Shown piece by piece: positions 29,366-39,190 of a stretch of DNA of 64,000 bases. The DNA is from Moritella yayanosii (lineage in GTDB: Bacteria; Pseudomonadota; Gammaproteobacteria; Enterobacterales; Moritellaceae), in assembly GCF_900465055.1 (NCBI RefSeq), contig NZ_LS483250.1:4092001-4156000 (forward strand), given 5' to 3'. A program made the position numbers and the translations under genes. How positions within the stretch are numbered: position 1 is the stretch's first letter; every line of letters starts with the position of its first letter. The notes under the pieces were generated by a model that was given only the letters and a program-made list of their open reading frames with translations, searched no databases and was not told where the DNA came from.

Positions 29366-30181
29366 ATGGCTGTTTATGTAAATACTAATGTTTCATCTTT
29401 AAATGCACAGCGTCAATTGAGTAATGCATCCAATGAGATAGGTAAATCGTTCGAACGTTTATCTTCGGGTAAGCGTATCAACAGTGCGGCAGATGATGCT
29501 GCGGGTTTGCAGATCGGCGCGCGTTTAGAATCTCAGGTTAATGGTCTAAACCAGGCTTCACGAAATGCTAATGACGGTATTTCTTTAGCTCAAACCGCAG
29601 AGGGTGCGTTAGACGAAACAACGAACATGCTGCAACGTATGCGAGTACTGTCAATTCAATCTGCCAATGGTTCGAATAGCGCAGCGGATCGTGATGCATT
29701 GCAACTCGAATTTGGTGAATTAAAAGAAGAAATCAACCGTATTGCCAAAGATACAACGTTTGGTGGTGAGAATTTACTGGACGGTACTTATGATGCAGAT
29801 ATTCAAGTCGGTGCCGATGCCAATCAAACCATCAAATTAAGCATTACATCCAGTATGGGTACTGGTGGTTTAGGTGTGACAGGTGATAACATCAGTACTG
29901 CTGCTGGCGCTCAGACCGCAATTGAGAATCTGGATTCAGCGATTGCTTCCGTCACTAATACTCGTGCAGATCTCGGTGCGAAACAAAACCGTTTTTCATC
30001 GACCATTCGTAATTTAACCAATATCTCACAAAATGTATCGGCATCGAAATCTCGTATCGTAGATACTGATTTTGCTGCAGAATCGGCAAATCTAGCGCGT
30101 GTTCAAGTACAGCAGCAGGCGGCAAGTTCAATGTTGAGTCAAGCGAACCAAACCTCACAAATAGCACTTTCTCTACTTTAA
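29366..30181 (+). CDS. fliC: Flagellin, tandem paralog 3 (sigma28-type promoter)
   Basis: A 271-residue flagellin. The ends are [20 protein letters not shown] and a C-terminal [20 protein letters not shown]. It is more diverged from paralogs 1 and 2 than they are from each other, with the main changes at residues 8-25, 110-125 and 145-175. Its TAAA-N15-GTCGATAA promoter places it in the FliA late class. It may be an accessory subunit at a different position along the filament. Confidence 0.95.
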
Positions 30182-30199
30182 TTGAGTAAATAAGTTATT

Positions 30200-30224
30200 G
30201 CCCCGCTCATAGTGGGGCTTTTTT
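30200..30224 (+). terminator. Terminator after flagellin 3
   Basis: GCCCC (30200-30204) pairs with GGGGC (30214-30218), extended by GCT/AGT, then a T run. It is immediately followed by the ribosome-binding site of flaG, so flaG needs read-through or a promoter further upstream. Confidence 0.85.
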
Positions 30225-30240
30225 GTCTTCGGAGGTGATG

Positions 30241-30660
30241 ATGTCCACAATTAATACGGCAGATAATAAGATCACGAATTTATATGTTGCTCCTGTTGAC
30301 ACAACCAATGACCCTTCGTTGTCTGCTATAATCGAACCTGAATCCGAGTTAAAGTCACCGATTAAAACGACTGAAACAGATAAAAAACCTTCCAATTCCC
30401 CTTGCGATGAAGAGTTGGAACAAAATTTGCTTGAAGCAACGGGAATACTGCAAACACATTTTGATGTGAATAATAAGAAGTTAGACTTTAGTGTGCATGG
30501 TGACTCTGGCCGGGTGATAGTGAAAATTATCGATCCCGATAGTGGCGAAATACTTAAAGAACTACCTTCTGAAGTGGTCCTGAAAATGGCTGATAACATT
30601 AAACAGTTTCAGGAGGATATATTCAGTAGCAGTGGTCTGTTATTGGATGAAATGGTTTGA
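30241..30660 (+). CDS. flaG: Flagellar protein FlaG
   Basis: A 139-residue FlaG. The N-terminal half is polar and variable; the C-terminal half has the conserved LDFSVHGDSGRVIVKIIDPD segment followed by GEILKELPSEVVLKMADNIK. FlaG influences filament length or attachment in polar flagellates; its exact role is unsettled. Start: GGAGG at 30231 is 5 bases before the second of two adjacent ATGs (30238 and 30241). fliD follows after 62 bases. Confidence 0.88.
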   Translation: MSTINTADNKITNLYVAPVDTTNDPSLSAIIEPESELKSPIKTTETDKKPSNSPCDEELEQNLLEATGILQTHFDVNNKKLDFSVHGDSGRVIVKIIDPDSGEILKELPSEVVLKMADNIKQFQEDIFSSSGLLLDEMV

Positions 30661-30722
30661 TAATGGATCAGCGGTAATGATTTTCCTCTGGTATCAATAA
30701 TTGGTAAAACGTAAGGATATAT

Positions 30723-32120
30723 ATGGCTGGTATGACTATGGCGGGCATGGGTTCTGGAATGGACCTTGAGTCGATCATTAAAACATTTGTAACAGCTGAA
30801 AAAGCGCCGAAAGAAGCGCGTTTAAATAATAAAGAAATCAGCATTACAACTGAATTATCTGGGGTCGGAACTTTACGTGCGGCCTTGGCTGATTTTCAAA
30901 GTATTACCAATAAATTAGGTAATACTGATACCTTTTATCAAAGTAAAACTAATATTCACTATCAGGGTCGCTCAGTTGACTCTAGTGCTGTCCGCCAGGC
31001 CGGTGAAAGTAATGCAATATTGCCGATCTCCATTGAAACTAAAGGCGTGGTACCGAAAGGCTCGTTTGATGTTAAGGTGACTAAGTTGGCACAGGGCGCT
31101 CGTTTAGAATCTGATTTCATGCCAGACCGTATGGTGAAACTGGGTCAGGGGATCATGTATTTTGATGCCGGTAAGGACAGTTTTGAAGTTAATGTCAATG
31201 TGACTGATACGTTACAAGATATTCAGAAAAAAATTAATGAAGCCCCCAATAACTATGGGATCGGCGCCAACATTATTAATTCTGATCTTGGTGCGAAAAT
31301 GGTTTACACCTCAGATAAAACTGGTGTGGCGAATGATTTAACGGTATTTACCTCTGATTCAAGCTTAGCGATGATCTCCTCGAAGATGGTTGGAAAGGCG
31401 GCTAGCGATGCCATTATTGCAATCGACGGCAATATTATTACCCAAGATAGTAACACTTTTACCCACGCGGTTTCAGGGGTCACGATCACTGCCAATAGTT
31501 TGACTGAAAATAATGACGTGGTCAATTTTTCCACGGCCACTGACCATGCTGCGGTAAGCGATCTGGTGCATGAATTTATCGATGGTTATAATCGTTTAAT
31601 TAGTACTATCAATACTCTGACGGATCCAGAAACGGGCTCCCTTAAATTTGATTCAACAGCCCGCAGTGTTAAGCAACAGATGCAGTCGATTACTGGCGGT
31701 GTTGTAAATGGGGCGAGTAGTAAGCTAAATACATTATATGCGGCTGGTATTTCCTTAGAAGAGGGCGGGGTCCTGGCGATCAATCCGTTTGGTAGCAATG
31801 GTAGTAAATCTGGCGTTCAACGTTTAGATGACGCTGTTAATAATGCGCTGGATGATCTTGGCAAACTGTTTTCCGGTAAGAACGGGGTCGCGGCACAAAT
31901 TAATGCGGTACTTGATAACAGTTTAAATAATAAAGGCACGATCACTCAGCGCCAGTCACTGCTCAATACTAATTTACGTAGTCTTGAGGACGAGCGCGAT
32001 AAATTAGATCGCTACATATCCTCTTATGAAAATACATTACGGAAAAAATATACAGCGATGGATAATACCGTGTCGCGCTATAATGCTACCGGTGACTATA
32101 TTCGTAATGTCTTGGGATAG
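30723..32120 (+). CDS. fliD: Filament cap protein FliD (HAP2)
   Basis: A 465-residue filament cap. The N-terminal region has the MGSGMDLESIIKTFVTAEKA motif used by FliD (about residue 10-30), a beta-rich middle with FliD repeats (SFDVKVTKLAQGARLES; ANDLTVF), and a C-terminal coiled-coil (TNLRSLEDERDKLDRYISSY). Five copies cap the filament tip and fold incoming flagellin. FliS and the FliT-like protein that follow are probably its partner chaperones. Confidence 0.94.
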   Translation: MAGMTMAGMGSGMDLESIIKTFVTAEKAPKEARLNNKEISITTELSGVGTLRAALADFQSITNKLGNTDTFYQSKTNIHYQGRSVDSSAVRQAGESNAILPISIETKGVVPKGSFDVKVTKLAQGARLESDFMPDRMVKLGQGIMYFDAGKDSFEVNVNVTDTLQDIQKKINEAPNNYGIGANIINSDLGAKMVYTSDKTGVANDLTVFTSDSSLAMISSKMVGKAASDAIIAIDGNIITQDSNTFTHAVSGVTITANSLTENNDVVNFSTATDHAAVSDLVHEFIDGYNRLISTINTLTDPETGSLKFDSTARSVKQQMQSITGGVVNGASSKLNTLYAAGISLEEGGVLAINPFGSNGSKSGVQRLDDAVNNALDDLGKLFSGKNGVAAQINAVLDNSLNNKGTITQRQSLLNTNLRSLEDERDKLDRYISSYENTLRKKYTAMDNTVSRYNATGDYIRNVLG

Positions 32121-32210
32121 TCGATAATATAACGAATAATCCCTGACGGGTGAAAACGCAGTTATTCGGGTATGTACACCATTCAATATAAATAATAATT
32201 AGGTAAAAAT

Positions 32211-32633
32211 ATGAGAGCGAATATCAGACGTTATCAGCAAGTTAGTCGTGAAAGTGGCATTGCTTCTGCGGATAATCATCAAGTGATCTTTATGTTGTTA
32301 CAGGGGCTGCTTGATTCTGTTGCTGTAGCTAAAGGTTGTATCCTACGTAATGATATCGAAGGTAAAGCCAAAGCGATTAATAAATCTATTAATATTACCT
32401 CGGGGTTGATTGACGGTATTAATCATAAAGTGTATCCGGAAATTGGTGAGAATTTTGATGCCTTGTACCGCTATATTCAATTACGGTTGAATGATGCCAC
32501 GTTAGAACGTGCTGTAGAGCCGTTGGATGAGATCACGACATTGGTTACACCAATTAAAGATGCTTGGTTAAATATTCCACAAGCGGAAAAAATGAAAGTT
32601 GCAGCAATGCGTGAACAAACCCGTGGTGCTTAA
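32211..32633 (+). CDS. fliS: Flagellin export chaperone FliS
   Basis: A 140-residue all-helical protein. The N-terminal RANIRRYQQVSRESGIASAD and HQVIFMLLQGLLDSVAVAKG are characteristic of FliS. It binds the C-terminal D0 of flagellin and prevents premature polymerisation. The next gene begins 2 bases after the stop, so the two are co-translated. No T-rich terminator lies between fliD and fliS. Confidence 0.93.
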   Translation: MRANIRRYQQVSRESGIASADNHQVIFMLLQGLLDSVAVAKGCILRNDIEGKAKAINKSINITSGLIDGINHKVYPEIGENFDALYRYIQLRLNDATLERAVEPLDEITTLVTPIKDAWLNIPQAEKMKVAAMREQTRGA

Positions 32634-32635
32634 TC

Positions 32636-32950
32636 ATGATTGACTTGAAAGCGGCATTAATGGTGGACATTACTGCGTTATCTGAGCAGGCGAAAGTAGC
32701 GTTGCTTACTGGAGACTTTGATAACTGTGATATGTTATTACAGCAGCGTCAGCAATGTATTGAGCAACTGGTTAATTTAACGTCGCCTCTGGCGGCGGAC
32801 ACCGCCGCGTATTTGACGCAGATTATCACTGATGATGCGGCTGAAATAAACAAACTAACGACTGCGAAATTGGAGCTTGAATCACAACAGATGACTACCA
32901 AGCGCCATGCCAGATCAATTGATCGTTATCTTGCTATTAAACAATTTTAG
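32636..32950 (+). CDS. Small helical FliT-like protein
   Basis: A 104-residue helical protein, 2 bases after fliS and 9 before the maf-type gene. It has a predicted coiled-coil (LLQQRQQCIEQLVNL; TKLELESQQMTTKRHARSID). FliT is a short helical FliD chaperone usually placed next to fliS; size, fold and position fit. Sequence conservation in FliT is too low for me to be certain, and in Vibrio-type clusters this position is often labelled simply hypothetical. Confidence 0.65.
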   Translation: MIDLKAALMVDITALSEQAKVALLTGDFDNCDMLLQQRQQCIEQLVNLTSPLAADTAAYLTQIITDDAAEINKLTTAKLELESQQMTTKRHARSIDRYLAIKQF

Positions 32951-32959
32951 GTTGTTCTT

Positions 32960-35074
32960 ATGGAAAATTTAAGTCACAATATTAATTCTCAGATTGCCGC
33001 TTTAGAAGGTTTACAACAACAGCATCAGAAGAACTTAAGCCTTGCTCAGGAAATCGATGCTATCTATCAAAATGCACAGCTACCTATCGTTGATCCAACG
33101 GCACTCTATGCTGCCAATATGGCTGCTTTTAAGCTGTATATTCCCGATATCCATGCGTCATTTGTCGATTATCAACCAGCCAAATTTGAATTGGCTCAAC
33201 GCCATGGTGAATTACATTTGGTGGACGTTGAGGACAATATTGTATTGGGTGAGAATTATTATCGTGACGGCTTGATTGATTTTGAAAAATACCGTTTTAA
33301 TCCACAATTAACTCGCGTCGATTTTTCGGATGAAATTGATAATCCAATTAATTTTGTGCATGTTAAATATATCAATCAGTTAACTAATTTAGTGAGTCAG
33401 GTTAACCAACAACATAAGCAAGAACTGATATTACCAGAAGCCGTTAATATGATGGTTTGCTTTGGGTTAGGTTTGGGTTATTACTTACCGCTGATGTTAA
33501 GTAAACACCAAGTTAAACGTCTATATATTTATGAACCTGAGCATGATTTTTTCTATGCGAGTTTGTTTACACTCGATTGGGCTGAAATATTACAGCAATT
33601 AGATGCTAATAATAGTAGCTTGCATTTATGTTTAGGCGCGAACGAAGATGATTTTTTTGCTGATATATCGAGTGAGCTTATTGCTAAAGGGCGTTATGAT
33701 TCGACCTTCAGTTTCTGTTATAAGCATTATGCGACTGAGCAGATGGATAAAGCCTTAGAGAAATTTAATAATCAAGCTTATCAGGTTGCTTTTGGTTTTG
33801 GTTTTTTTGATGATTCATTATTGGCTTTGGCGCATCAATATCATAATTTGAATAAACATGTGCCACTGTTAGGCAAGGCCGAACCACTACCTGAATGCGC
33901 CACATTACCGGTCTTTATCCTGGCTAATGGCCCCTCTCTTGATGAGCATATTGATTACATTATTGCGAACCGTGATAAAGTGCTCCTTGTCAGTTGTGGT
34001 ACCACCATACGCGCTTTGCATCAGTATGGAATTAAACCTGATTTTCATTTAGAGATGGAGCGCACCCGGACCACACACAGCGTGTTGCAGTCAGTGGGGG
34101 ATGAGGCTTATCTTAGGTCTATCCCGTTATTAACGTTAAATACCATATCCCCGGATGTATTGGACCTATTTGATCGCCAGCTGATGGCGTTAAAAATGGT
34201 GGAGCCATCCACTGAAATCATTATGAATCCAGCATTGGGTTGCGATAATGATAACTTAACCCAGCTGATGTATTGCAACCCCACCGTCGCTAATTTAGCC
34301 TTGTCTTTTTTCACTCAGATGGGGTTCAAAAATATTTATTTATTTGGCGTTGATCTTGGTTTTAGCGGTGATGCTCACCACAGTAAAAAAAGTATCTATT
34401 ACGATCAATCAGGTCAAGATAAGCAATTGTTTAATAAAAAGGCGTTGGCAAATTTAGTCGCACCGGGTAATCATGTTGACCAAGTTGAAACAACCATGAT
34501 CTTTCAGATGTCGGCAGTTGGCCTGACGGCGTTATTACGCTTAAACCCCGAGGTTAATTGCTATAATCTTGGTCAGGGCATTCGAATTGATAATACTATT
34601 CCAACGTATCAAGCGGATATATGTTTACCTGACAGTACGCTAGATAAAGCGTTGTTTGTGGAGCAGATGCTGACGCATTACGCTGTTGATACTCGGGTGT
34701 TGGCGCAGCAATACAGTCATATATTACATCAGAATCTATTTTCTGAATTTGTCGACGAGATGCTGGCATTATTACAGCCGTCTGTCGCAGATAGATATGC
34801 GGCGTTAGAACAGTTACAACAACAATTTATTTTATTGCACAGTAAGTATGAAACGAAAGATGCCTTTTTAGCCGATATGTTGCGGGGGACCTTGCAACAT
34901 TGTCATGCCTCAATAATTAAGTTGTTATTGTTACCGGCTAGTGCAGAGCAGGGATTAGTCTATTATCAGCAAGGCATAGCTATTTTTGTTAACTACCTTC
35001 AAGAGACCAAAGTTAAGTATAATAAAGAGCTGTTTGAGGCCGATAAAACCGATATGTCGGCAACCTGGCAATAA
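32960..35074 (+). CDS. Maf-type motility accessory factor (DUF115), probable flagellin glycosyltransferase
   Basis: A 704-residue protein with the MAF/DUF115 core in its middle. The core includes VFILANGPSLDEHIDYI near residue 315, DKVLLVSCGTTIRALHQYGI and KPDFHLEMERT near 355, and NIYLFGVDLGFSGDAHHSKK near 460. No signal peptide or membrane segment is seen. Maf proteins in Campylobacter, Aeromonas and Shewanella are needed to attach nonulosonic acids to flagellin before export. Here it follows fliS and the FliT-like gene with a 9-base gap. No nonulosonic-acid synthesis genes are in this window, so the donor sugar is unknown. Confidence 0.85.
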   Translation: MENLSHNINSQIAALEGLQQQHQKNLSLAQEIDAIYQNAQLPIVDPTALYAANMAAFKLYIPDIHASFVDYQPAKFELAQRHGELHLVDVEDNIVLGENYYRDGLIDFEKYRFNPQLTRVDFSDEIDNPINFVHVKYINQLTNLVSQVNQQHKQELILPEAVNMMVCFGLGLGYYLPLMLSKHQVKRLYIYEPEHDFFYASLFTLDWAEILQQLDANNSSLHLCLGANEDDFFADISSELIAKGRYDSTFSFCYKHYATEQMDKALEKFNNQAYQVAFGFGFFDDSLLALAHQYHNLNKHVPLLGKAEPLPECATLPVFILANGPSLDEHIDYIIANRDKVLLVSCGTTIRALHQYGIKPDFHLEMERTRTTHSVLQSVGDEAYLRSIPLLTLNTISPDVLDLFDRQLMALKMVEPSTEIIMNPALGCDNDNLTQLMYCNPTVANLALSFFTQMGFKNIYLFGVDLGFSGDAHHSKKSIYYDQSGQDKQLFNKKALANLVAPGNHVDQVETTMIFQMSAVGLTALLRLNPEVNCYNLGQGIRIDNTIPTYQADICLPDSTLDKALFVEQMLTHYAVDTRVLAQQYSHILHQNLFSEFVDEMLALLQPSVADRYAALEQLQQQFILLHSKYETKDAFLADMLRGTLQHCHASIIKLLLLPASAEQGLVYYQQGIAIFVNYLQETKVKYNKELFEADKTDMSATWQ

Positions 35075-35184: not shown

Positions 35185-36468
35185 ATGCGAATTGAATTTA
35201 TCAGTACGGGTGATGAGGTACTATCAGGGCAAATTGTCGATACCAATGCGGCATGGATATCACAACACTTTTTCCATCAAGGTCGTCAATTCACCCGGCG
35301 CCATACGGTGGCGGATGATTTAGACTCGCTTATCGACATCATTACTGAAACCAGCCATCGTGCTGACGTAGTGATCATGAATGGTGGGTTAGGACCAACA
35401 TCGGATGATTTAAGTGCTGAAGCAGCGGCGAAAGCGATGGGGGTGCCATTAAGCCTATCGCAAAAATGGTATGATCATTTAGTTACTAAATATGCCAAAT
35501 CTAATCGTACTTTGTCTGTGAGTGATGAAAAACAAGCTTGGTTGCCACAAGGTAGCGAAGTTGTTGATAACCCGGTAGGCACTGCCTGTGGGTTTAGTTT
35601 CCAATTTAATCGCGCGCGTTTTTACTTTACCCCTGGGGTACCAAGTGAATTTAAACACATGGTTACCGAGCAAATACTACCCGATATTCAACAACGTTTT
35701 ACGCCAGTAACAATACCTACTTTAATCAAGATTAAAACCTTTGGTATCTCGGAATCTGTGTTGAATGAACAGCTCTGCGCGTTAAATTTACCTGATACTA
35801 TCACCTTAGGTTTTCGCGTTGATTTTCCGACAGTGGAGGTCAAGTTATTATCGACACATGTCGCCGATTTACAGAAAGCGAGGTTACAAGTACTTGCTGA
35901 GTTAGGTGAGTTTATACTATTTGAAGGCGATGGTTCCTTTGCTCAGTATTTACAACACTTAATGTTAGAAAAAGGCCATACCTTATCCCTTGCGGAATCT
36001 TGCACAGGTGGCTTGATTGCCAGCGAATTGATCGCGGTTGCTGGGAGTTCCGGTTACCTTGATTCTAGTCACGTGACGTACAGTAATGAATCTAAATGTC
36101 GTTTAGTCAGTGTGAATAAAGCGACGATAGACAAGTATGGTGCAGTATCGATAGCAGTTGCTGCCGAGATGGCACAAGGTGCAATGCGGAATGCAGGCGT
36201 TGACTTTGGTATTGCAGTGTCAGGTATTGCCGGTCCGGGGGGCGGGAGTGATGATAAGCCTGTTGGGACTGTGGCATTTGCATTAGCGAGTCATACACAT
36301 ACGGTTAGCCAGTTGTTATTTATTCCGCGTCGGGATCGTCAAGGGATCAGAACTGTTGCGTTATATGTTGCATTAGATATGTTGAGAAGGGAGTTACTGG
36401 GTTTAGATTTGGCTGCGGAATTTGGCTCATTAGAGCGCCGTGCCTATTGTGATACTGTGAACAGCTAG
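35185..36468 (+). CDS. CinA-type protein with NMN amidohydrolase domain
   Basis: A 427-residue protein with two domains. The N-terminal MoaB/CinA domain (about 1-165) has FISTGDEVLSGQIVDTNAAW and NGGLGPTSDDLSAEA near 70. The C-terminal CinA domain (about 262-415) has LAESCTGGLIASELIAVAGS and VSGIAGPGGGSDDKPVGTVA near 345. The C-terminal domain is a nicotinamide-nucleotide deamidase in E. coli PncC, giving a role in NAD recycling. AAGGA lies about 8 bases before the ATG. It follows the flagellar block without an evident functional link. Confidence 0.88.
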   Translation: MRIEFISTGDEVLSGQIVDTNAAWISQHFFHQGRQFTRRHTVADDLDSLIDIITETSHRADVVIMNGGLGPTSDDLSAEAAAKAMGVPLSLSQKWYDHLVTKYAKSNRTLSVSDEKQAWLPQGSEVVDNPVGTACGFSFQFNRARFYFTPGVPSEFKHMVTEQILPDIQQRFTPVTIPTLIKIKTFGISESVLNEQLCALNLPDTITLGFRVDFPTVEVKLLSTHVADLQKARLQVLAELGEFILFEGDGSFAQYLQHLMLEKGHTLSLAESCTGGLIASELIAVAGSSGYLDSSHVTYSNESKCRLVSVNKATIDKYGAVSIAVAAEMAQGAMRNAGVDFGIAVSGIAGPGGGSDDKPVGTVAFALASHTHTVSQLLFIPRRDRQGIRTVALYVALDMLRRELLGLDLAAEFGSLERRAYCDTVNS

Positions 36469-36544: not shown

Positions 36545-37318
36545 TTACCATTTCTGTTTTGGTTGAAACAGCAGGTCTAATTCATTTTTTTCGTTTTCTT
36601 TTTCTTGGCGATCTTTTAAGTCATCTGATGAAGCTTGGGTAAGTTGCTCATTCACCTCATTAAGTAAAGAGACTAGATTTTGTTGTTTGGTGATGAGGGA
36701 TTCGTTTTTATCATTAATATTATTTAATGTATCAATGCCTTTACGTAGCAATTGTTTACAAGAGCCAAATTGACGCGTTGCACGCGCTTCGTAAGCGCGT
36801 TTCAATAAATTATCAATGTTGACGTTCAGTTGCATCAGTTCAAGTTTACGATCTTCAATCACAAAGGTTTGGGTATTTACTTTACTTTTGGCATGCTCTA
36901 CACGTAACACAGCCCGAATTTTTTTGATTTGTTGCAGTAATACAATCGCCTCTCGATCGGAGTTCGGAGAACGGAACATGTTATCTTCTATCTGTGCCGG
37001 CATTTCTTTTAATTGTGCCATTTGGGATTTTACGTTGGTTAAGCGCTGACGTACTTGCGGCAGGCTTGGATCCAGTTGTAATATAGCGGTGAGAGAGTCA
37101 CGCATGCGACTGTGTAAGACTAGCGTGAGTACTTTACTGTAAGGTAATGATGTTGCATTTATTAGTAATTCTTCAGCATCTTCAATGATTTTCCTATGCT
37201 TTATGATTATCAGACGCTTTTCTGTTTCAGCTTTACGCTTGTACTGTAAGATGATGTTATAACCGATCATCAAAAACAGTAGAACAGCAATCGCGATAAT
37301 CATAAGAGTGAGCTTCAT
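36545..37318 (-). CDS. Membrane-anchored coiled-coil protein of unknown function
   Basis: A 257-residue protein I do not recognise. A single membrane segment (about residues 3-23, LMIIAIAVLLFLMIGYNII) is followed by about 230 residues of charged helix with heptad-like regions, including RLTNVKSQMAQLKEM, RAVLRVEHAKSK and a Glu/Lys/Asp-rich C-terminus (EKENEKNELD). The topology predicts a cytoplasmic coiled-coil tail. It lies 55 bases downstream of a histidine-kinase-like gene on the same strand, which suggests one operon. Any signalling link is inference; a structural or polarity role is equally possible. Confidence 0.6.
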   Translation of the reverse strand: MKLTLMIIAIAVLLFLMIGYNIILQYKRKAETEKRLIIIKHRKIIEDAEELLINATSLPYSKVLTLVLHSRMRDSLTAILQLDPSLPQVRQRLTNVKSQMAQLKEMPAQIEDNMFRSPNSDREAIVLLQQIKKIRAVLRVEHAKSKVNTQTFVIEDRKLELMQLNVNIDNLLKRAYEARATRQFGSCKQLLRKGIDTLNNINDKNESLITKQQNLVSLLNEVNEQLTQASSDDLKDRQEKENEKNELDLLFQPKQKW

Positions 37319-37373
37319 TGTATAATAAACCTAATTTTGCTGCGGTATTAAGATATTACTATAAATACCTTAC

Positions 37374-38111
37374 TTAAGGTAGTATTAAGGTGAAGATACC
37401 ACCACCAAGTTCCCCCCCATTACTTAGCGATATATGTCCTGTTTGCCCTTTAATTACATGTGCGTTAGCAATTAATCGAGCAAAATATAAACCTAATCCA
37501 GTGCGTCCCTGCTTACTGCTTAACTCAGCCATTGAGTTGTGCTGAGCTTGTAACATGCTATCTGGGTAGCCTTCACCATTGTCGGCAATCTCTATTACCA
37601 GCTGCTCATTAACGATTTCCGCTGTAACGAGGATCTTGCCTTGGCTATAACGGAGGGCATTGATGAACACGTCGGATAATAAGTAGCTAATTAAATTGTG
37701 ATCGCAGTACCAAGCCAGGTCGATGTTAATGTTAATGTTAATCTCTATGTTGTTACTGTCGCTGTATAGCTGATTTTTGATGCAAAATTCAGTGAAATAA
37801 TCAGCAATAAAACATTCAGCAATATTTAATGGTAGCTGCTTGTTGTCATTGCGGTACAAGGAAAGTACTTGGATTAAGCCGCTGTTAAGGCGTAATACTT
37901 CATAGTGTAAATCCGCGAGTTTAGCGCCGTGTTTCAGGTCATCTTGCGCAGGGTTAATATCTGCAGACATCGATTCAATTGATTGTAATAACAGGCACAA
38001 TGAATTTTTCATATCATGTACTGCAGATGTTAGGATCAATGCGTAATCAACTGTGTCTTTGCTTGGTTTAATGTTATCGTCTAAAGGTGTCATCATATCT
38101 TTGGTCGGCAT
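37374..38111 (-). CDS. Histidine-kinase-like protein without sensor domain
   Basis: A 245-residue soluble protein. A candidate H-box (SAVHDMKNSLCLLLQSIES) at about residue 31-50 has a phospho-acceptor His at about 33. The ATP-binding domain (about 130-245) has an N-box-like DVFINALRYSQG, G1 IEIADNGEGYPDS and G2 GRTGLGLYFARLIA. There is no membrane segment and no sensor domain. No response regulator is adjacent. It could be a real kinase partnered elsewhere or an ATPase-type regulator. Divergent from cysB; the membrane coiled-coil gene follows. Confidence 0.8.
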   Translation of the reverse strand: MPTKDMMTPLDDNIKPSKDTVDYALILTSAVHDMKNSLCLLLQSIESMSADINPAQDDLKHGAKLADLHYEVLRLNSGLIQVLSLYRNDNKQLPLNIAECFIADYFTEFCIKNQLYSDSNNIEINININIDLAWYCDHNLISYLLSDVFINALRYSQGKILVTAEIVNEQLVIEIADNGEGYPDSMLQAQHNSMAELSSKQGRTGLGLYFARLIANAHVIKGQTGHISLSNGGELGGGIFTLILP

Positions 38112-38203
38112 AAAAGTAATGTTCCCTAGGATATCTTATTAACAATAAATAACAGTATTCTGCTATTGTTTTGTTAGAATACAATTAATTATTTGGAATA
38201 TAG

Positions 38204-39190
<987 letters not shown>

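Follow-up and report, generated by a model that had tools for sequence, protein, structure and literature searches.

A minimal histidine-kinase core beside cysB in Moritella yayanosii and an unlinked receiver–TPR protein as its candidate partner

Which regulator does a histidine kinase serve when it has no sensor domain and no response regulator beside it? The question is raised by two genes of Moritella yayanosii, here called A and B, which lie in the window analysed in this work (64,000 nucleotides of contig NZ_LS483250.1, positions 4,092,001 to 4,156,000). A is transcribed first and B follows after 55 bases; both are on the minus strand, divergent from cysB. The original prediction, made from the sequence alone, described A as a soluble kinase-like protein with H-, N-, G1- and G2-box motifs, and B as a membrane-anchored coiled-coil protein of unknown family that could recruit the kinase to the membrane or act as its sensor. 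On recheck, the coordinates, the strands, the spacing and the divergence from cysB were all correct. Both A and B are genuine genes, and the divergent neighbour scores above the NCBIfam equivalog cut-off for CysB (602.8 against 436 bits). The features of the locus are compiled in table 1.

Table 1. Features of the cysB–A–B locus of M. yayanosii (window coordinates).
Feature	Position	Strand	Length, boundaries or basis
A, soluble minimal histidine kinase	37374-38111	-	245 aa; DHp helices ~23-89, CA ~97-245
H-box HDMKN of A, residues 32-36	38004-38018	-	His32 phosphoacceptor, Asn36 = H+4
N-box Asn151 of A	37659-37661	-	Asn in 104/104 genomes with A
G1 box DNGEG of A, residues 177-181	37569-37583	-	D177 and G181 in 104/104
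G2 box GLG of A, residues 205-207	37491-37499	-	G205 and G207 in 104/104
A–B gap	37319-37373		55 bases
B, membrane-anchored all-helical protein without known family	36545-37318	-	257 aa
Hydrophobic stretch in B's first helix, ~residues 5-24	37247-37306	-	hydropathy maximum
Conserved C-terminal tail of B, ELDLLFQPKQKW	36548-36583	-	conservation among relatives
A/cysB divergent intergenic region	38112-38215		site of RR-I in relatives that keep RR-I
cysB, conserved divergent neighbour	38216-39190	+	domain and equivalog matches, neighbourhood

Elsewhere in the window, positions 29366–35074 carry flagellin and FlaG-, FliD- and FliS-like genes (names assigned by eye on the basis of the open reading frames) and then a Maf-type glycosyltransferase, and positions 35185–36468 encode a CinA-family protein with MoCF and CinA domains, in which a KH match (E = 0.034) is below the cut-off. 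Among the mapped loci, flagellin and Maf gene clusters are also found beside B in G003, the other Moritella locus mapped, and in no other.

The kinase nature of A was examined by domain, profile and structure comparisons. HATPase_c is matched above its Pfam cut-off (41.2 against 26.4 bits, E = 2.5e-10). There is no HisKA match in the Moritella protein at E ≤ 1; two of its relatives match HisKA at E = 0.011 and 0.02, below the cut-off. A profile of the A family (51 relatives) aligns with the DHp–CA core of SrrB (6paj) over positions 14–229 of 230 (E = 4e-20), and this alignment places His32 of A on the His of the SrrB H-box. The structural model of A (mean pLDDT 75.7, with DHp helices 23–50 and 58–89 of lower confidence and the CA part mostly high) matches the cores of the EnvZ chimera, CusS, HK853 and DivL. 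Profile and fold matches together give A a DHp with a phosphoacceptor His. The protein thus shares with HisKA-type cores (SrrB 6paj, HK853, the EnvZ chimera and CusS) the DHp hairpin, the CA domain, the four boxes and a near full-length match of profile and fold, but it has no transmembrane, PAS, GAF or HAMP input part and, in this genome, no linked regulator. No sensor or input domain was found and, because the 245 residues comprise only DHp and CA, A is a kinase core and not a sensor kinase.

The residues expected in a working enzyme are well preserved. The phosphoacceptor His is kept in 97 of the 104 genomes with A in our order sample, G179 of the G1 box being replaced by Ser in eight, and the conservation of H32, N151, D177, G181, G205 and G207 is far above chance. 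From these sequence comparisons, A is a predicted kinase reduced to the minimal histidine-kinase core, in which the H, N, G1 and G2 boxes are all intact, so that the boxes and the lack of a sensor, both noted in the original prediction, are borne out. A plasmid search with A gave no match.

The arrangement of the locus is conserved in many genera, as the original prediction had proposed to check. In the named loci, which are the best 80 of 502 matches and include Moritella, Motilimonas, Alteromonas, Catenovulum, Rheinheimera, Paraglaciecola, Glaciecola, Aliidiomarina, Neiella, Agarivorans and others, B lies directly 3' of A in 79 (the contig ends in the other one), with A–B gaps of 30–171 bases, and cysB is divergent upstream of A in 78. 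In the order sample, B adjoins A in 98 of the 104 genomes with A, and cysB is present within the stretch examined in 84 of them.

In relatives, A is accompanied by a regulator. This protein, RR-I, is a response regulator in which domain search finds a receiver and TPR repeats (a composition abbreviated here as RR-TPR). It is encoded directly upstream of A in 31 of the 104 order genomes, and position 32 of A is His in all 31. The class sample comprises 274 genomes, 30 of which contain A besides the window genome (G000), and 24 of these loci, all outside the order, were examined. RR-I is directly upstream of A in 23 of them, and the 24th starts only 75 bases before A, at a contig end. The gap between the two genes is about −4 to 47 bases in the 21 of the 23 loci for which it was computed, and for each of the 23 regulators the score against RR-I exceeds that against the second type of regulator described below. 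Since RR-I precedes A in all but one of the 24 loci examined outside the order, RR-I and A form the basic unit and the state of the window is derived. In the window genome RR-I is absent beside A, and none is found elsewhere at E ≤ 1e-25. The claim that A has no adjacent response regulator is therefore true here, but it describes a derived state: judged by these comparisons, A was orphaned secondarily, by the loss of a linked regulator that is identifiable in relatives.

Some variants of the RR-I arrangement were observed. In G330:C13 and G383:C72, a second RR-TPR is encoded on the side of A opposite to RR-I, in the usual place of B, and no adjacent B was found. Eight genomes of family f6 without A (G015, G136, G148, G160, G193, G233, G320 and G356) have an RR-TPR of the RR-I side in which the phosphoacceptor Asp is replaced by Gly; it is possibly a relic regulator or a phosphorylation-independent one.

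The window genome contains one RR-TPR at E ≤ 1e-25. It is full length and is encoded far from A, outside the window (G000:C1:1758587-1760179); its receiver (62.9 bits) has the intact quintet DDDTK and is combined with TPR repeats, and no DNA-binding domain was seen by domain search. The protein falls in a clade, RR-II, separate from RR-I with a support of 100/100 in one tree and, with 82 tips, of 1.0 in a larger tree. Most genomes of the clade to which the window belongs have no RR-I beside A and carry an unlinked RR-II. At E ≤ 1e-60, an RR-TPR is present in 102 of the 104 genomes with A and in 43 of the 290 others, as genome counts in which relatedness is ignored; G046 has an RR-TPR adjacent to A by BLAST, but none at this threshold. 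Both regulators occur together in two genomes of family f20 (G029 and G052), with RR-I next to A and RR-II at another site. A second RR-TPR, outside the trees, is also present in the remaining four f20 genomes that have A.

The smallest clade of A proteins holding all 73 without an adjacent RR-I comprises 79 tips, of which the f20 genomes make up the remaining six. In this RR-II-carrying clade, the residue at H+11 of A is Gln in 76 of 79 members (70 of the 73 without adjacent RR-I and all six from f20), against 3 of 25 in the other genomes with an adjacent RR-I, a pattern that could be explained by clade membership alone. RR-II is also found in genomes without A. Its Asp is kept there in 4/4 genomes of family f2 and in all 11 genomes examined of family f25 (of 21 with an RR-TPR), with the acid pair altered in nine of the 11; because RR-II persists without A in these two families, it has some use without A. 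Four f21 genomes without A have intact RR-TPRs, which lie outside RR-II.

The states of A and RR-II were then compared across genomes. Receivers were scored on a set of residues, D23, D24, D68, T/S100 and K122 (numbering of the G029 RR-I), which was fixed before the large comparison but after G025, G049 and G055 had been seen; the rule for an intact receiver allows Glu for the first Asp of the acid pair, many f6 genomes reading ED. Of the 73 genomes in which A has no RR-I beside it, 64 have an intact H-box and nine an altered one. Where the H-box is intact and an RR sequence was in the set (55 genomes), 53 have an intact RR-II receiver. The remaining two are G153, in which RR-II is broken and the His of A is kept, and G059, in which no RR-II was found and other, intact RR-TPRs are present. 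The other nine of the 64 genomes, eight from Moritella and G304 (51% complete; A present, no RR-TPR found), had no RR sequence in the set and stand outside the 53/55. Two genomes counted among the 53 have stop-flagged RR-II genes, with one in-frame stop in G174:C1:4209093-4210037 and two in G095:C1:2163605-2164639 (loci L389 and L408). The H-box of A is intact in both, and the stops reflect either sequencing error or recent decay.

There are three independent events of loss. The first is in family f16, the only one among the 104 genomes in which the His of A is lost: in seven genomes it is replaced by Tyr (five), Ser (one) or Gln (one), and in the same seven the RR-II phosphoacceptor Asp has become Glu and the acid pair DD has become DP (D-P-E). 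The state of G153 suggests an order of events in which the first changes were in the regulator and the G1 box, and the drift of the His came later. The second event is in genus g93, whose two genomes are the only ones of the 104 with an altered H+4 Asn, replaced by Gly or Ser. No RR-II was found in them at E ≤ 1e-30, and each keeps another, distant RR-TPR match with an intact receiver. An altered H+4 is a weak sign of decay, and the g93 case is weakened, because two genomes outside the order (L325 and L326) read HDIKH, with the H+4 Asn replaced, beside an adjacent RR-I. The third event concerns the regulator in a genome without A: in G163 the Asp of RR-II is replaced by Thr (D-G-T), and its genus-mate G185, which has A, reads D-D-D and is intact.

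Other RR-TPR paralogues, examined as a partial control, lack the Asp in G124, G291 and G329, where the A H-box and RR-II are intact; the grouping of these paralogues is unsteady (support 1.0 in one tree and 0.34 in another). As these three genomes show, Asp loss in an RR-TPR does not on its own imply a connection with A. Counted by genomes, which ignores relatedness, the co-degeneration of A and RR-II gives a Fisher p of 2e-9. Measured by tree length, the probability is about 0.02 that the two H-box events would both have landed in lineages lacking a working RR-II. The RR-II tree has a length of 28.47, of which 20.26 lies inside lineages with a His-bearing A and 29% outside, G130 (60% complete) and G274 (85%), which have RR-II and in which no A was found, being counted as A-bearing in this estimate only. 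By their sequences, A and RR-II tend to decay together, in few independent events.

Taken together, these patterns make it probable that A phosphorylates RR-II in trans and that it descends from an old pair with RR-I, of which it is the member that now looks orphaned. In this old two-component pair, A would be the kinase and a receiver–TPR protein without a DNA-binding domain the regulator, encoded in the ancestral layout directly before A. In the clade that contains Moritella, RR-II would have been present unlinked while RR-I mostly disappeared from the neighbourhood of A; A would look orphaned because RR-II is unlinked and RR-I is mostly no longer beside it. The kinase would dimerize through its DHp and autophosphorylate His32, and we infer that the phosphate would then pass in trans from His32 to the Asp of RR-II. 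As A has no sensor, its input would have to come from another protein or from the level of A itself.

The TPR part of RR-II may then act by protein contact, by analogy with VieB of Vibrio cholerae. According to its published account, VieB is an auxiliary protein of the VieSA system that inhibits the kinase VieS and was poorly phosphorylated by it, and phosphorylation of its receiver regulates its inhibition of a kinase (PMC4352251). The likeness to RR-II is one of domain layout, a receiver followed by TPR repeats with no DNA-binding domain seen; VieB inhibits VieS (PMC4352251), whereas RR-II is proposed to work with a separate, soluble kinase, A. No published description of the A/RR-TPR pair, or of B, was found in the open-access literature searched.

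The second gene of the pair belongs to a different kind of protein. B has a single hydrophobic N-terminal helix (19-residue mean KD 2.7), and no Pfam or NCBIfam family matches it, as the original prediction had anticipated. Its description as a membrane-anchored coiled coil holds for the hydrophobic helix, but the model (mean pLDDT 86.6; helices 2–56, 62–82, 87–105, 121–143, 149–180, 184–199 and 206–250) shows a long N-terminal helix followed by an array of several helices, which differs from a plain coiled coil. Comparisons of this array with known folds stay below trusted levels: the best Foldseek match has E = 0.067, and the best of the VIA-align matches has Z = 10.3 (23 chains at Z of at least 8, mostly Bro1, 14-3-3, BamD and TPR-like helical arrays), which is below the level trusted for helical proteins. 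A PDB profile search gave nothing convincing (best E = 0.09), and no TPR model matched over its cut-off in the window B or in four homologues. No family was assigned to B from these fold matches. B may resemble such helical arrays, but it has no sequence family, and its N-terminal helix and KW-ending tail are its own.

This tail is strikingly constant. Each of the 78 complete B proteins of the named loci (best 80 of 502 matches) ends in K-[KRQ]-K-W and has a Phe among its final 12 residues, and the KW end is found in 97 of 98 A-adjacent B proteins of the order sample, the remaining one being cut by a contig end. The tail pattern has three matches in the window genome, B among them. A second B paralogue, 28–32% identical, is present in nine of the ten other genomes of the genus and is lacking in the window genome and in G007; its tail no longer ends in KW in G003 (L086:6257-7012) and G009 (L088:5469-6224).

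Could B be the missing input of A? In one alternative to the proposal that A phosphorylates RR-II, A and B would form a membrane signalling unit in which B anchors or senses, holding the soluble kinase at the membrane and gating it. Several observations agree with this: B is present in all 104 genomes with A and keeps the position next to A described above, no terminator-like site was found in the A–B gap, and the hydrophobic helix and the array predicted by the model could bind a protein. The wider distribution of B, however, argues against a dedicated sensor or recruiter. Of the 394 genomes of the order sample, 241 carry B, and 137 of these 241 have no A; in such genomes B often lies between cysB and topA. 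The tail is kept in the 12 B proteins that were aligned from A-less genomes, and also where the His of A is lost. Outside the order no B was found beside A in the 24 loci (up to 1.5 kb downstream, some contigs ending earlier), and in the class sample B is detected at E = 1e-12 only in G000 and G015 of the 274 genomes. A mirror-tree analysis, in which A–B was compared with cysB, sdaA, nudix and pabB in 33 dereplicated loci (38 of the 80 named loci have all six genes), gave a partial correlation of 0.24 for A–B, not above that of pairs such as A–pabB (0.47). A dedicated A–B unit is therefore doubtful. The wide distribution of B, its constant tail and the mirror-tree result suggest that it is a separate, wider family with a function of its own. 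Because B is present in all 104 A genomes and lies near A in the same orientation, it may nevertheless anchor A, and this membrane-anchored protein encoded 55 bases downstream is one candidate anchor in the proposal that A acts on RR-II.

A may also be mainly a phosphatase, or a DivL-like, non-phosphorylating regulator binding RR-II, in which the fold would matter and phosphotransfer would not. DivL, a larger protein in a cell-cycle relay, has Tyr at the phosphoacceptor position, and five of the f16 homologues of A likewise have Tyr for His. In f16 A survives as an intact open reading frame, with the His replaced in seven of eight genomes and G179 replaced by Ser in all eight. DivL of Caulobacter (PMC4211667; structure 4q20) is a close fold match to A and, of the 50 structural matches listed for the model, the one with the highest TMq (0.70). 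Moritella A, by contrast, keeps His32, which is retained in nearly all genomes with A together with the N, G1 and G2 boxes, as in a working kinase, and we regard this alternative as unlikely. That A is a decaying relic whose regulator was lost and replaced by nothing is very improbable: no RR-I remains beside A or elsewhere in the genome at the threshold used and f16 demonstrates that such decay occurs, but A is 84–93% identical in 10/10 other genomes of the genus, its H-box is intact in most genomes without an adjacent RR-I and its catalytic residues are invariant or almost so in 51 aligned members.

Phosphorylation of RR-II by A can be placed in a broader account of the locus, which as a whole we offer only tentatively. 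A gammaproteobacterial clade may have rewired an ancient kinase–regulator pair, the kinase staying beside cysB. The linked TPR regulator would have been lost from the locus, and the unlinked paralogue would have become the phosphoacceptor. G029 and G052 of f20 would represent a living intermediate, and in f16, g93 and G163 both sides would have decayed. B would be a new membrane adaptor family, its tail docking a partner common to many families without A, to which the kinase would have been coupled later.

B is a widespread family, present in 241 of the 394 order-sample genomes; its C-terminal peptide is remarkably constant, and it has no match in Pfam or NCBIfam. Finding the targets of orphan kinases is difficult, and here the comparison of lineages names one specific, unlinked regulator. 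The natural loss-of-function cases on both sides are few, and a single phosphotransfer assay can test the pairing of A with RR-II. If the pairing is true, the cysB–A–B locus would provide a worked example of a two-component pair that changed partner while the kinase gene stayed in place.
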